A stretch of 64,000 nucleotides of DNA from [Clostridium] saccharolyticum WM1 (GTDB lineage Bacteria > Bacillota > Clostridia > Lachnospirales > Lachnospiraceae), in assembly GCF_000144625.1 (NCBI RefSeq), contig NC_014376.1, positions 3,100,001-3,164,000 of the forward strand, given 5' to 3'. The stretch's first letter is position 1, and every line of letters begins with the position of its first letter. A program made the translations under genes and the position numbers. A model generated the notes under the pieces. It was not told the DNA's origin, ran no database searches, and saw only the letters and a program-made list of their open reading frames with translations. This document shows, piece after piece, positions 4,046-8,469 of this stretch.

Positions 4046-4558
4046 TCAGCATTGATTTCTAATATCAAAGCTTGGATTGAATGCGTAGAAATTCCTGCTG
4101 TCCAGATTATCCTGAACAACTCTTAAGGCTTCCCCGAATCTCTGGAAATGAACTACTTCCCTCTCTCTCAAAAAGCGGATTGGATCACAGATTTCAGGAT
4201 CGGTTATTACACGAAGAATGTTATCGTAAGTACTCCTGGCCTTTTGCTCTGCTGCCATATCCTCTACCAGATCAGTGATGGGATCTCCCTTTGACTGAAA
4301 TTCACAGGCATTAAACGGGATTCCTCCTGCTGCCTGAGGCCAGATGCCTGTGGTATGGTCAATGTAGTAGGGACCAAAGCCGGAATCCACGACCTGATCC
4401 GGAGTTAAGTTTCTGGTCAGCTGGTGAACGATGGTTGCTACTATTTCTAAGTGGGCAAGTTCTTCTGTCCCGATATCCGTCAAAAGTCCTTTACATTCCT
4501 TATAGGGCATGGCATAACGCTGAGAGAGATAGCGCATGGAAGCTGCCATTTCTCCGTC
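4046..4558 (-). CDS. cotJC: CotJC spore coat protein (Mn-catalase family), C-terminal segment of split gene
   Basis: This codes for residues 33-202 of the reconstituted CotJC, a manganese-catalase-like inner spore coat protein. Visible motifs are 'DGEMAASMRYLSQRY', 'DIGTEELAHLE' (metal-binding Glu and His), 'AAEQKARSTY' (Glu) and 'REREVVHFQRF' (His). As it stands the frame has a stop just upstream, at 4568-4570. The first possible start, ATG at 4549, would drop the first metal-ligand Glu (the E of DGEM). The missing 32 N-terminal codons are at 7188-7283, on the far side of the inserted element, in the same phase at the shared GGACCA. Alone this segment is unlikely to make an active enzyme. 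Confidence 0.93.
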   Translation of the reverse strand, partial: DGEMAASMRYLSQRYAMPYKECKGLLTDIGTEELAHLEIVATIVHQLTRNLTPDQVVDSGFGPYYIDHTTGIWPQAAGGIPFNACEFQSKGDPITDLVEDMAAEQKARSTYDNILRVITDPEICDPIRFLREREVVHFQRFGEALRVVQDNLDSRNFYAFNPSFDIRNQC

Positions 4559-4564
4559 TGGTCC
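4559..4564 (-). repeat. Attachment-site core, low-coordinate end of cotJC element
   Basis: The gene-strand sequence GGACCA codes for Gly-Pro in the cotJC frame. It is repeated at 7188-7193 in the same codon phase. Recombination between the two copies removes 2,629 bp. Confidence 0.85.
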
Positions 4565-4667
4565 CCCTTATGCCAAAAACAGATAAACAGAGCTTGCGGC
4601 TCCCCTGCGCTCATAATTCATTCCTTTTCCCCATATATTATAAAAACATTTCTTTTCAGAGGCCCTT

Positions 4668-5327
4668 ATGCAGACAATCTCTCAAAGAACGCTGACCGAT
4701 ATTATGCGCTATCATGGGATCACTGTTTTCATCTATACAATCCATTATCCTTTTTTTGCCACCGCATGTGATCCTGCAGCCGCCCAGAGCATTAATATGT
4801 TCTATGAACTGCAAGCCAGGCAGACAGAGGCTTACTGCCGCAATGAGCTGTATGCCCAGGCCGTAGATCAGGTAAAATACGCACGGAAAAACCAGTTCCC
4901 CTTTCATAACTATGAATTCATATCGGTTTATAAAGTTACATACAATGAGGATTGCGTCACCAGCCTCTACACCGATCAATACTCCTACCTGGGTGGCGCC
5001 CATGGAAATACAATCCGGGATTCCCAGACCTGGGACTTCAGTACCGGCAAACAGATAAGACTCCCTGATTTTTTCCCAAACAATCCGAAATTTACAGACT
5101 TTATTTTTACAGGAATCCAGCAGCAGATAGAAGAACAGATAAAAACAGACTCAGCCGAATATTTTGATGATTTTCCATCACTTATTCGTGGTAATTTTAA
5201 TTTGAATGGATTTTATGTCCATCCCAATGGGATTGTCATCTATTATCAGCAGTATGATATTGCTCCCTATGTAAGGGGAATTCCGGAATTCTTCTTTCCT
5301 TTTCAAGACTGTTCTTTCAATACCTGA
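4668..5327 (+). CDS. RsiV-like DUF4163/DUF3298 domain protein, cargo of cotJC element
   Basis: A 219-residue protein with the DUF3298 (RsiV/PdaC C-terminal) signature: 'YSYLGGAHGNTIRDSQTWDFSTGK' in pieces near residues 105-130, and 'GFYVHPNGIVIYYQQYDIAPYVRG' near 180-205. A DUF4163-like segment precedes it. Family members occur in anti-sigma factor RsiV and in peptidoglycan deacetylases, usually outside the membrane. Here no clear signal peptide is visible, only a weakly hydrophobic stretch at residues 17-33. The ATG at 4668 has a poor ribosome site (CAGAGG). It lies 104 bp inside the element, so it would be removed on excision. Confidence 0.75.
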   Translation: MQTISQRTLTDIMRYHGITVFIYTIHYPFFATACDPAAAQSINMFYELQARQTEAYCRNELYAQAVDQVKYARKNQFPFHNYEFISVYKVTYNEDCVTSLYTDQYSYLGGAHGNTIRDSQTWDFSTGKQIRLPDFFPNNPKFTDFIFTGIQQQIEEQIKTDSAEYFDDFPSLIRGNFNLNGFYVHPNGIVIYYQQYDIAPYVRGIPEFFFPFQDCSFNT

Positions 5328-5429
5328 CCTTGATCTGTCTCCTGGCCGGTTCCCTGGTTCTTTGGTTCCGGCCGGGCATAAGTTCATACTTATTCTATGG
5401 TAGAATGTCCGGCCATCCGCCCTCAAGTA

Positions 5430-5588
5430 TCAGCCAGAAGCCGTCAATCTTCGAAATCCCATAGATTCCATCATGTTATCCTGAAGCATCAAAGCAATTT
5501 CTTTACGCTTTTCCTCTGGCAAAGTATCCATAAGAACATCTTTCCCTTTCATTTCTATGTAATTTTTTATAATTGGTTTTTTGTTCAT
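5430..5588 (-). CDS. 52-residue protein divergent from recombinase, candidate directionality factor
   Basis: A small, highly charged protein starting MNKKPIIKNYIEMKGKDVLM and ending near 'MGFRRLTASG'. The ATG at 5588 has a strong ribosome site, AAGGAAGGGGG, 7 bases ahead; a longer frame to 5624 is open but less likely. It is transcribed away from the recombinase gene, with 90 bp between the two starts. A mother-cell-like minus-10 (CATACATT, 5609-5616 region) lies just upstream. I know no named family for it. By position and size it resembles SprB, the small directionality factor of the B. subtilis spsM/SP-beta system, so an excision-factor role is a reasonable but unproven guess. Confidence 0.7.
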   Translation of the reverse strand: MNKKPIIKNYIEMKGKDVLMDTLPEEKRKEIALMLQDNMMESMGFRRLTASG

Positions 5589-5604
5589 ATTTTCGCCCCC
5601 TTCC

Positions 5605-5618
5605 TTGTAAAATGTATG
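5605..5618 (-). promoter_or_regulatory. Possible sigma-E/K-type minus-10 for the 52-residue gene
   Basis: The minus strand reads CATACATTTTA about 20-30 bp upstream of the ATG at 5588. This agrees with the sigma-E minus-10 pattern CATACA-T and partly with the sigma-K pattern. I see no convincing minus-35, so this is only a hint. Confidence 0.3.
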
Positions 5619-5678
5619 TGACACGGATTGTACTTGTTTCCTGATATTTCCCAGGAGTACAGGAAAGAGGGGTTGGTA

Positions 5679-7136
5679 TTGAACAGAAATAAAACAATGG
5701 AAATTGGAGCAGCTTACGTTCGCGTAAGCACAAATGACCAGACAGAGCTTTCTCCTGATGCCCAGTTAAGAGAAATTAAAAAAGCAGCAAAAGCAGACGG
5801 GATCCTGATCCCGGAAGAATTTATATTTATAGAAGAAAAAGGAGTCAGCGGACGCAGGGCGGACAACCGGAAGCAGTTTCAGAAAATGATCTCCATTGCC
5901 AAGTCCCAGCCTTCTCCCTTTCAGTATCTCTACCTCTGGAAGTTTTCCCGGTTTGCGAGAAACCAGGAAGAGAGCATGTTTTATAAAGGCGTTCTCAGAA
6001 AAAAATGCGGGGTGACCATCAAAAGCGTATCCGAACCCATTATGGAAGGCATGTTCGGCCGTCTGATAGAAAGCATCATCGAATGGTTTGATGAATACTA
6101 TTCCATCAATTTATCCGGTGAGGTTACCAGAGGCATGACAGAAAAAGCCTTAAAAGAAGGATACCAGGCTTCTCCCTGCCTGGGATACCGGGCGGTTGGT
6201 GAGGGAAAGCCCTTTCTAATAGACGAGAATGAATATAAGATCGTGGAATACATCCACCAGTCCTACCATAACGGAATGGATTTATCGGCTATTGCAAGAA
6301 ATGCAAATTTACAGGGATTTCTCACAAAAAGAGGAAACCGGTTTGACCGCAGGGCCGTTGAACGCATATTAAAAAACAGGTTTTATGACGGGATGGTCAT
6401 CTGGAAAGACATCTCCTTTCACGGACAGCATGAAACCAGGCAGACTGTAACATCAGTGTTTAAAGACAATCAGAACCGCCTGCAAAGGGAATACAGGCCC
6501 AGGAACCGCCGGGAAGTGTCCAACTGCAGGCATTGGGCGTCCGGTCTCTTGAAATGCGGATACTGCGGAGCAAGTCTGGTATTTAATAAAGCCCCGGATA
6601 CAGGCCGTCATCCCAGCTGTTTCCAGTGCTGGCGTTACGCCAAAGGACTTCATGAGGAATCCTGCAGCATAACTGCCAGAAAAACAGAAGATCTTATTAT
6701 GGAATCTCTTCGCAATGCTCTTTCCATGGAAGAGATAACGTACGGCTATGTACCAAAGCCTGTTATCCTAACGATGGGGGAAGAAGAACACATACAGGCG
6801 GCCCTGTCAAGGATCAGCCGCAAAAAACAGCGGATAAAGGAAGCTTATGAAAATGGAATTGATACACTGGAAGAGTATCACGCAGGTAAAACACGGCTGG
6901 AAAAGGAGCAGGAAGAGCTTAGGAACCGCTTGATGGATTTGAATCGCTGCCCCGCCCGGGATAAGACGGCTGATAAGCTGCTGCTGGCAGACAGGATCCG
7001 GAATGTCTGTGACATTCTTTCCGATCCTGAGGTGAGTTATGAGATGAAAGGAAATGCTTTAAGAAGTGTGGTAAAGAAAATTGTTTATGATAAACAGGAA
7101 GGAACGATGAAATTTTTCTATTACATCTCCCGGTGA
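5679..7136 (+). CDS. Large serine recombinase of the cotJC element
   Basis: A 485-residue site-specific recombinase of the large serine family (phage integrases, SpoIVCA, SprA). The resolvase domain holds the catalytic serine in 'AAYVRVSTNDQ', then 'EKGVSGRRADNR' and 'WKFSRFARNQEES'. A recombinase domain follows ('GYQASPCLGYRAVG'), then a zinc ribbon ('LKCGYCGASL' with later Cys pairs near residues 285-320), and a coiled coil near residues 370-425. The TTG at 5679 is chosen because AGAGGGG lies 6 bases ahead; the first ATG (5697) has no ribosome site at proper distance. It is the obvious enzyme for moving the element in and out of cotJC. Confidence 0.93.
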   Translation: MNRNKTMEIGAAYVRVSTNDQTELSPDAQLREIKKAAKADGILIPEEFIFIEEKGVSGRRADNRKQFQKMISIAKSQPSPFQYLYLWKFSRFARNQEESMFYKGVLRKKCGVTIKSVSEPIMEGMFGRLIESIIEWFDEYYSINLSGEVTRGMTEKALKEGYQASPCLGYRAVGEGKPFLIDENEYKIVEYIHQSYHNGMDLSAIARNANLQGFLTKRGNRFDRRAVERILKNRFYDGMVIWKDISFHGQHETRQTVTSVFKDNQNRLQREYRPRNRREVSNCRHWASGLLKCGYCGASLVFNKAPDTGRHPSCFQCWRYAKGLHEESCSITARKTEDLIMESLRNALSMEEITYGYVPKPVILTMGEEEHIQAALSRISRKKQRIKEAYENGIDTLEEYHAGKTRLEKEQEELRNRLMDLNRCPARDKTADKLLLADRIRNVCDILSDPEVSYEMKGNALRSVVKKIVYDKQEGTMKFFYYISR

Positions 7137-7187
7137 CCGGCATGAAATAATGTCTGCCTTATGGACTGATCATAGGTGATTGTCATA

Positions 7188-7193
7188 TGGTCC
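7188..7193 (-). repeat. Attachment-site core, high-coordinate end of cotJC element
   Basis: Gene-strand GGACCA following 'MSQYGG' codons; identical to 4559-4564 and in the same reading phase. Flanking bases differ between the two ends except for the core, as expected for attL and attR of a serine integrase. Confidence 0.85.
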
Positions 7194-7283
7194 GCCATAC
7201 TGGCTCATAATGAACATAGCAGCCTTGGGATTAGGAGTGGTAATATTGACCGGATACTGTAATCTCTTTTCATACCTCCACAT
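7188..7283 (-). CDS. cotJC: CotJC spore coat protein, N-terminal segment of split gene
   Basis: Thirty-two codons starting MWRYEKRLQYPVNITTPNPK and reaching 'MSQYGGP', the typical CotJC N-terminus. The ATG overlaps the cotJB stop (TAATG), showing tight translational coupling. Beyond the core the frame runs into the element and stops after five more codons (Y-D-N-H-L, stop at 7170-7172), so a 37-residue peptide is predicted before excision. After excision it joins the segment at 4046-4558 to give a 202-residue CotJC. Confidence 0.92.
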
Positions 7284-7558
7284 TAACCGCACACTCCTTC
7301 CCAGGGCCATGGATCTTCTATCCAGGTCCAGTAATTTTCATCCATTACTCCATCAGCCATAAGAGGACCGCACTGCTCTTCATAGGCCTGCATTGCCTGT
7401 AAACGCATGTTCACTACATAAAAGTAATAGTTCAAAGCTTCCTGATCATCTGGATGGGTGTCAAGATACAAAACCACATCATCCATTGCAAAGCTGGCTT
7501 CATACACCTGCCTTAACAGCATATCGCAATTAGCATTAGAACTCATCATCACCGGCAC
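7283..7558 (-). CDS. cotJB: Spore coat protein CotJB
   Basis: A small cytosolic-type spore coat protein of about 91 residues with the CotJB signature 'LLRQVYEASFAMDDVVLYLD' followed by 'THPDDQEALNYYFYV' and a C-terminal Trp-rich end. It overlaps the cotJA stop. The listed start is GTG at 7558; ATG codons at 7549 and 7546 are also possible and sit better behind the GGGGGGG run. In Bacillus the cotJABC operon is made in the mother cell under sigma-E, and CotJA and CotJC depend on each other for assembly. Confidence 0.92.
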   Translation of the reverse strand: MPVMMSSNANCDMLLRQVYEASFAMDDVVLYLDTHPDDQEALNYYFYVVNMRLQAMQAYEEQCGPLMADGVMDENYWTWIEDPWPWEGVCG

Positions 7559-8469
7559 CCCCCCATAATAAATGGTTTATTCAAATCCGGGAAGATTGTA
7601 CCAACGTCTATGGCCACCTCTACCGAGTATACCTGCTGCCACCTTTGCCATGGCACATAAGTCATCCCCACCGGGAACAGATCGATATTTTCAGCAGGAG
7701 AAGGCCGGCCCGGACATCTGACCGGGGCTTTGTATGCGGGCATTTCCGGACATTTCACAGGCATCGCTTCTTTTACTTTTTCCGGACATTTCACCGGCAT
7801 TGGACAAACGGGCATTTCGGGACACTTCATTGTCATGGATTCCCTAACTTTTTCCGGGCACTTCGGGGGCATTGGGCACATGGGCATTTCCGGACACTTC
7901 ATTGTCATGGATTCCCTAACCTTTTCCGGGCACTTCGGGGGCATTGGGCACATGGGCATTTCCGGACACTTCATTGTCATGGATTCCCTAATCTTTTCCG
8001 GGCATTTCGGGGGCATTGGGCACATGGGCATTTCCGGACACTTCATTGTCACGGCTTCCTTAACCTTTTCCGGGCACTTCGGGGGCATTGGGCACATGGG
8101 CATTTCCGGACATTTCATTGTCACGGCTTCCTTAACCTTTTCCGGGCACTTCGGGGGCATTGGGCATACCGGCATTTCCGGGCAAATCATGCAAACGGGC
8201 GCGGTTTCCGATTCCCCCTTTGTGTCTGAACACTTGGTTTTTTTAGGTGGCATCCACGGACAAGGACCTGCGGACATTCCCTGCTGTCGCATAAGTATGG
8301 GGGATGCCGCAGTGTCTGCGGATTTTGCCGGACCTGAGCCAAGGGGCATGTCGGGACGGATCACCGTACCAGGGCTGGCAGACATATCAAGCCCCATAGC
8401 CGTTTCCCATCCGGTTGAGCCGGTGCCGGTCTTATATCCGGGACACCATTGCTTCGTATAACAATCCAT
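7549..8469 (-). CDS. cotJA: CotJA with a cysteine/proline-rich repeat expansion
   Basis: The last ~45 residues are a normal CotJA ('MTYVPWQRWQQVYSVEVAID' then 'GTIFPDLNKPF'). Ahead of it is a ~95-residue Gly/Ser/Pro-rich head and six tandem 24-residue repeats (residues 95-238) of the type 'KCPEMPMCPMPPKCPEK'. CotJA is normally about 80 residues; this one is 306. Each repeat carries three Cys-Pro motifs, so the segment could cross-link by disulfides or bind metal. The ATG at 8469 follows AAAGGAG at somewhat long spacing. It heads cotJA-cotJB-cotJC. Confidence 0.9.
   Translation of the reverse strand: MDCYTKQWCPGYKTGTGSTGWETAMGLDMSASPGTVIRPDMPLGSGPAKSADTAASPILMRQQGMSAGPCPWMPPKKTKCSDTKGESETAPVCMICPEMPVCPMPPKCPEKVKEAVTMKCPEMPMCPMPPKCPEKVKEAVTMKCPEMPMCPMPPKCPEKIRESMTMKCPEMPMCPMPPKCPEKVRESMTMKCPEMPMCPMPPKCPEKVRESMTMKCPEMPVCPMPVKCPEKVKEAMPVKCPEMPAYKAPVRCPGRPSPAENIDLFPVGMTYVPWQRWQQVYSVEVAIDVGTIFPDLNKPFIMGGCR
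7756..8187 (-). repeat. Six 72-bp tandem repeats inside cotJA
   Basis: In-frame 72-bp units, near identical at the DNA level in the middle copies, coding for a 24-residue Cys/Pro/Met-rich unit. Copy number is likely to vary between strains by slippage. Confidence 0.9.

Follow-up and report, generated by a model that had tools for sequence, protein, structure and literature searches.

A skin-type element inside the cotJC gene of [Clostridium] saccharolyticum, likely excised by its own serine recombinase

Introduction

How can a gene be kept in working order when its reading frame is found in two separate pieces? This question is raised by cotJC in a 64,000-nucleotide stretch of the [Clostridium] saccharolyticum WM1 genome (NC_014376.1, positions 3,100,001 to 3,164,000), which we call the window. 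A 2,629-bp element was found here inside the coding frame of cotJC, within the cotJA-cotJB-cotJC operon, and the genome is a single contig of 4,662,871 bp. An earlier note on this stretch, made from its letters only, had proposed a skin-like element that can be removed seamlessly. We find this to be the best explanation in view of the selection on both pieces, the in-frame joins in all 22 pairs compared, the intact genes of relatives and the signs of excision in relatives. The element is likely excised in the sporulating mother cell by its own large serine recombinase, which would restore a cotJC of 202 codons.

The split gene and its predicted join

The start of cotJC overlaps the end of cotJB as TAATG, as was seen on re-reading the sequence, and the two copies of GGACCA (7193..7188 and 4564..4559) lie in identical codon phase. 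Fusing the pieces at this core gives one continuous frame of 202 codons and leaves over 2,629 bp, as had been claimed. Without the join, the 5' piece meets a stop five codons inside the element, and the 3' open reading frame (ORF) of 167 aa begins at ATG 4549, downstream of the predicted ligand Glu35. The joined protein matches PF05067, a manganese-catalase-like family, and aligns with manganese catalases of the PDB. Residues E35, E65, H68 and E136 and a REREVVH motif are all present in it. The four residues are predicted metal ligands after their counterparts in manganese catalases, and the role of CotJC in the coat is likewise presumed from its family.

The large serine recombinase ascribed to the element was borne out by the Resolvase, Recombinase and zinc-ribbon domains of Pfam, and its ORF has a further in-frame ATG at 5697. 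Besides the recombinase, no recognised phage gene was found in the window's element. The junction of the predicted circle does carry 12-bp arms with 9 of 12 positions complementary, a dyad that was the best of a scan. The small ORF and the cargo gene described below, an intact CotJC paralogue and a split sigK were absent from the earlier note.

Split and intact copies in relatives

Breaks in cotJC were observed at three places, namely codons 30-32 (site 1, as in the window), codons 62-65 (site 2; G008, G010, G014, G040 and G308) and codons 134-136 (site 3; G052 and G036). In the genus, cotJC is split in 18 of 25 genomes, the window's genome included. Both site-1 pieces lie on one contig in 15 of the 25, and three of these 15 (G008, G010 and G015) have the second site split as well. 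In G019 and G021 the site-1 pieces were seen through separate or cut contigs, and G014 is split at the second site only. The intact relatives that the earlier note had suggested looking for are present in the genus as G006, G007, G011 and G013. No operon-type cotJC copy was shown for G005 and G017 in this survey of 25 genomes, and G018 was placed in neither class.

The family was sampled with one genome per genus (150 genomes), of which 99 had a CotJC match. Among the matches listed, about 40 of the 99 were found by hand count to have cotJC broken at one of the three places, 24 of them with complementary pieces and about 16 with a lone piece bounded by a site; contig ends may explain part of these breaks. 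Beyond this family, in others of its order and class, breaks were observed at identical places, the single-contig genome G308 being one example.

A total of 22 site-1 loci were picked for having both pieces on one stretch, and several come from near-identical sister genomes (the contigs of L087 and L069 are also those of L018 and L021, respectively). In all 22 pairs the GG of codon 31 is common to both pieces and the join is in frame, and it follows that the arrangement is not due to chance. The joined frames reach 190-217 codons in 17 pairs, and the remaining five pass codon 65 into a second element. These joins were set in codon register, as joining by the longest common substring took repeats outside the core in 10 of 19 cases.

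Purifying selection was observed on both pieces at about the level of intact genes, which means that the joined gene must matter on a regular basis. Of the 15 genus genomes that hold both site-1 pieces on one contig, 11 were compared (G003, G004 and G023 being close sisters). In these the ratio of nonsynonymous to synonymous substitution rates (dN/dS) was 0.033 for codons 1-30 and 0.033 again for the 3' piece, at pooled dS values of 1.24 and 1.39. The four intact genomes gave 0.039 for the 5' part and 0.035 for the 3' part. In the same 11 genomes the recombinase distances follow the cotJC distances closely (Mantel r 0.93, p 0.0001), so that the element appears to be old and mostly inherited together with cotJC. 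In addition, G007 serves as a natural control: its cotJC is whole, and downstream lie what is left of an element, its recombinase missing, and a 3' copy interrupted by stop codons.

Some arrangements in other genomes were noticed apart from these surveys. In G287 (L154, L155) about 227 kb separate the two cotJC pieces, which are on opposite strands, in a genome listed with 11% contamination; simple excision cannot join pieces placed in this way, which implies an inversion or a later rearrangement. The site-2 pieces of the single-contig genome G229 (L156, L157) are about 157 kb apart. In G220 a diverged CotJC (36% identical, query residues 1-182) was observed between split pieces (L148 6826-7371, L149).

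Possible traces of an excised form in relatives

The element of [Clostridium] aerotolerans DSM 5434 stands alone as a contig of 3,417 bp (L017) that ends exactly at both cores. It starts with GGTGGGCCATATTG, its other end finishes with AACTCAGGTGG, and it shares a 95-bp overlap with the 3'-flank contig; the assembly examined yielded no 5'-flank contig. The ends of L017 are the exact points at which attL diverges from attP and attR from attP. Since the integrated form alone gives no evident reason for a break there, these ends point to attP reads coexisting with those of attL and attR. Furthermore, one contig of G018 has its start at the very point where attB would part from attR, with attR taken from the relative G003, and a predicted attP junction lies between element copies in G001. 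In the G001 scaffold itself (L066), three equally scoring recombinase copies occur together with two tandem cotJC 5' pieces; part of it is a likely scaffolding artefact, with an N at one of the seams.

Among viral contigs, 7 to 43 kb in length, 14 loci with a site-1 recombinase were found. Seven of these show cotJC pieces, and L172 and L183 show free attP junctions instead; next to these, the sequence on the recombinase side is 92% identical to that of the elements in Hungatella hathewayi and Lacrimispora celerecrescens. Any one of these cases could be imitated by tandem copies or by errors of assembly. Taken together, the contig ends and attP junctions make it very likely, as judged from assembled sequence, that excised forms exist in relatives.

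The element, its genes and their control

The features of the locus are given in Table 1.

Table 1. Features of the cotJ operon and the intervening element, in window positions
Feature	Position	Strand	Basis or remark
cotJA	8469..7549	-	PF11007 at residues 266-300
cotJB	7558..7283	-	PF12652, E 4e-30
cotJC 5' piece, codons 1-32, last bases GGACCA	7283..7188	-	PF05067 positions 1-32
cotJC 3' piece, GGACCA core through stop	4564..4046	-	Mn_catalase, E 6e-35 (167-aa ORF)
Intervening element, 2,629 bp	4559..7187	.	Limits ambiguous inside the 6-bp core (4559-4564 / 7188-7193)
Large serine recombinase, antisense to cotJC	5628..7136	+	Pfam Resolvase, Recombinase, Zn_ribbon_recom
52-aa ORF, putative recombination directionality factor (RDF), divergent from recombinase	5588..5430	-	Relatives in site-1 elements
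Cargo ORF, PdaC and DUF3298 domains	4668..5327	+	Pfam
Conserved block ACAAGTAC-N11-CATA, upstream of small ORF	5615..5637	-	Single match in window

Relatives of the recombinase adjoin split cotJC genes in several genera. In collections of plasmids and phages, 20 and 74 records, respectively, have a recombinase match, none of them at more than 60% identity. A relative of the 52-aa ORF was found in 19 of 20 annotated records of site-1 elements, the exception being L062 from a distant Bacilli bin. The PdaC ORF is less regular, with relatives in 15 of the 20 (it is missing from L072 of the window's genus and from L031, L044, L046 and L062). Two of these 20 records (L025 and L077) are one contig, and some are near-identical sisters. 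At site-1 recombinase loci of other genera the small ORF was often not seen within the stretch examined. No Pfam match was obtained for the 52-aa ORF up to E 0.1, and its model shows a beta hairpin and a helix at a mean predicted local distance difference test score of 89.5. We take this conserved, divergent ORF as the candidate RDF.

We noticed that a block, ACA[AG]GTAC-N11-CATA, lies upstream of 26 of 31 distinct small ORFs; 14 loci, read on either strand (469,574 nt), gave 12 matches, one of them in the window. In the site-2 elements of G014, G008, G010 and G015 the block also precedes a small ORF of some 54 aa that is unrelated to the first, and it precedes small ORFs of G168 and G006 as well. 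When 24 further loci, with other elements of site 2 and site 3 and distant ones of site 1, were scanned under relaxed criteria, three matches came up; G168 supplied the only one that looks genuine.

The -10-like CATACAAT of the block with an AC 17 bp upstream resembles the sigma-K motif of C. difficile (PMC3789822), and the ACARG of the block resembles the SpoIIID motif KRTAACARK (PMC5025042). An assignment to sigma-E or sigma-K was rejected, as neither motif fits fully and the likeness is partial. SpoIIID is present in the genome. The block probably drives the genes of the putative excision factors in the mother cell; mother-cell control is suggested by the target gene, by the analogy with known elements and by the conservation of the block itself.

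In the mechanism that we propose, the recombinase of the element would cut out the 2,629 bp in the sporulating mother cell and so restore the 202-codon gene. It would need the 52-aa protein as its directionality factor, this protein would be made under mother-cell control, and the restored CotJC would then work in the coat. As the copy passed to the spore would be the unexcised one, the split would persist across generations.

Weighing of alternative explanations

Several observations count against excision of a skin-type element in the mother cell. For the strain studied here, excision at whatever stage is argued from comparison of sequences. In the G018 contig that runs from the 5' into the 3' piece there is one additional C, and no recombinase more than 31% identical was seen in that assembly, for which reasons G018 was rejected as proof of excision and is suggestive only. 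The three-recombinase scaffold of G001 contains an N and a repeat in the manner of a misjoin, so that its attP may be a product of assembly, and tandem copies could be an alternative source of L017. A fold search with the 52-aa model against solved PDB structures returned 32 matches, none with E <= 0.001. The block is missing before 5 of the 31 small ORFs and was not found in the examined stretches of site-3 elements and of most non-Lacrimispora site-2 elements. It does stand before a 53-aa small ORF in a prophage of G009, which was not found inside a split gene. Furthermore, the whole genome of the window's strain (G000) holds two matches to the block versus three for a reversed control, and the block was therefore rejected as a general mother-cell promoter or regulon motif. 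Finally, G220 was tried as a split cotJC and left uncounted, as its middle piece covers codons 30-57 with no clean join at site 2. The intact paralogue, which also belongs to these points, is taken up below. As a separate observation, the G009 prophage (L171 5586-9600) has a recombinase that looks by eye to be of the site-2 type and lies beside a membrane-protein gene.

The alternative that survives best accepts an active recombinase and holds that excision happens at random or within a prophage cycle, unlinked to sporulation, so that a few cells restore cotJC by accident. It would agree with the site-1 recombinases and free attP junctions of the viral contigs, with the unrecorded growth stage of the DNA from which the excision-suggesting contigs come, and with the block in the G009 prophage. 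However, both pieces are under purifying selection like that on intact genes, and the window's element keeps its recombinase and small ORF though it has no other recognised phage gene. Moreover, the target encodes a coat protein, and this genome has a split sigK as well. We consider this alternative improbable.

A second possibility is that the insertion killed cotJC, that the pieces are remnants and that the intact paralogue does the work. Such a paralogue, 68.5% identical to the joined CotJC, is present at G000:C1:1384991-1385596 (-), and a full-length second CotJC is on record for 24 genus genomes out of 25, all but G012; loss of the split copy might therefore be tolerated. Remnants of a dead gene are nevertheless very hard to reconcile with a dN/dS of 0.033 in split genomes, where pooled dS exceeds 1.2, and with open joins in 22 of 22 chosen pairs, and where decay was seen, in G007, a whole cotJC sits beside the element remnant. 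That the 3' piece works by itself or with a short N-terminal peptide, with no rearrangement, is scarcely credible, for the 167-aa ORF starting at 4549 is without the first 35 residues, the predicted ligand Glu35 among them, and sites 2 and 3 cut the protein elsewhere, so that no single fragment would be functional in all genomes. Rebuilding of cotJC by excision in the mother cell is thus preferred.

Three insertion sites and stacked elements

The predicted ligand codons E35, E65, H68 and E136 adjoin the three insertion sites, and a single gene may hold more than one element. For example, G308 has two elements of about 4.7 and 10.6 kb and a joined CotJC of 202 aa, and the two-element genomes G008 and G010 give joined proteins of 202 aa and 203 aa. 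In the draft genome G052 all three sites are split, and its four pieces, which lie on three contigs, join into a CotJC of 200 aa. Site 2 of G027 joins through a 13-bp repeat. The site-3 row of G046 was out of register and was left unused.

In a tree of 55 chosen recombinases, those of site 3 fall on one side of a branch, and sites 1 and 2 require two and three changes, respectively; none of 500 label shuffles gave a value as low. At least two recombinase lineages use site 2. The recombinases thus group by insertion site, and separate lineages target one gene. We hold with as much belief as doubt a wider picture in which cotJC is a hub with three sockets beside its ligand codons. In this picture separate recombinase lineages would occupy it with up to three elements, each sporulation would require one to three DNA splicing events in the gene, and the excision-factor genes of several unrelated elements would stand behind one block so that the cuts coincide in the mother cell.

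Other contents of these elements were also noted. The site-2 element of G014 (L135 5350-8053) contains a gene for a sigma-70-family factor and one for a subtilase-family protease. In G006 a related recombinase (45% identical; L121 4449-6375) adjoins the C-terminal fragment of a gene with a peptidoglycan-binding domain. In G013 this gene is complete, as a 429-aa ORF, and in G000 it shows an open frame of 440; its 5' piece was not located in G006.

Comparison with known elements

The element belongs to a known kind. In the skin element of C. difficile, the mother-cell gene sigK is split, and a circle is excised by the recombinase CD1231 with the RDF CD1234 (PMC5025042). Both elements interrupt a gene of the mother cell and encode a large serine recombinase, and the small, separately encoded RDF of skin would have its counterpart in the putative RDF described here. 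The two differ in that skin splits sigK and the 2.6-kb element of the window splits cotJC, and CD1234 has 72 aa versus 52 for the ORF described here. Other sporulation genes split by elements are spsM (SPbeta), spoVFB (vfbin), spoVR (vrin), gerE (gin) and yabG (yin), as reported in PMC4191935, PMC5595907 and PMC10747680, and where studied they are rebuilt through excision by a serine recombinase in the same manner. As described in these sources, each of these genes holds one element, whereas cotJC has three sites used by distinct recombinase lineages, holds up to three elements and is split in many families of a class. A survey of large recombinases describes distantly related serine recombinases with common target genes (PMC10083194), which fits the cotJC sites.

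In open-access full-text literature, which leaves subscription papers uncovered and priority unproven, no account of a cotJC element was found. The nearest report concerns the prophage phi027 of C. difficile R20291, which adjoins the cotJC homologue CDR20291_1465, a "putative catalase" (PMC11222575). There phi027 is described as adjacent to the catalase gene, with no split mentioned in the text consulted. As far as we searched, the new points are cotJC as the gene, its three sites, the stacking of elements and the breadth of occurrence.

The rebuilding of sporulation genes has hitherto been known, as these sources present it, from a handful of genes with one element each, and cotJC is split repeatedly over a class. 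These splits amount to a large set of natural replicates. With them one could ask why genes of sporulation harbour such elements, be it for adaptive timing or as a safe home for mobile DNA. They would also allow one to ask how directionality factors come under host developmental control. For the reading of genomes, a working coat gene can appear as two to four fragments.

The sigK gene of the window's genome was also found in two pieces, about 5.7 kb apart, and joining these at a shared ATCCTA gives one open frame. Against the 3' piece of sigK lies a 562-aa ORF that resembles a serine recombinase by eye (L191, G000:C1:2336300-2344300). The other large ORFs between the sigK pieces appear, also by eye, to encode [NiFe]-hydrogenase subunits and a maturation protease. 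In the cotJ operon, the N-terminal part of cotJA was observed to be a long Cys/Met/Pro-rich repeat array ahead of the CotJA domain, and this array may bind metal.

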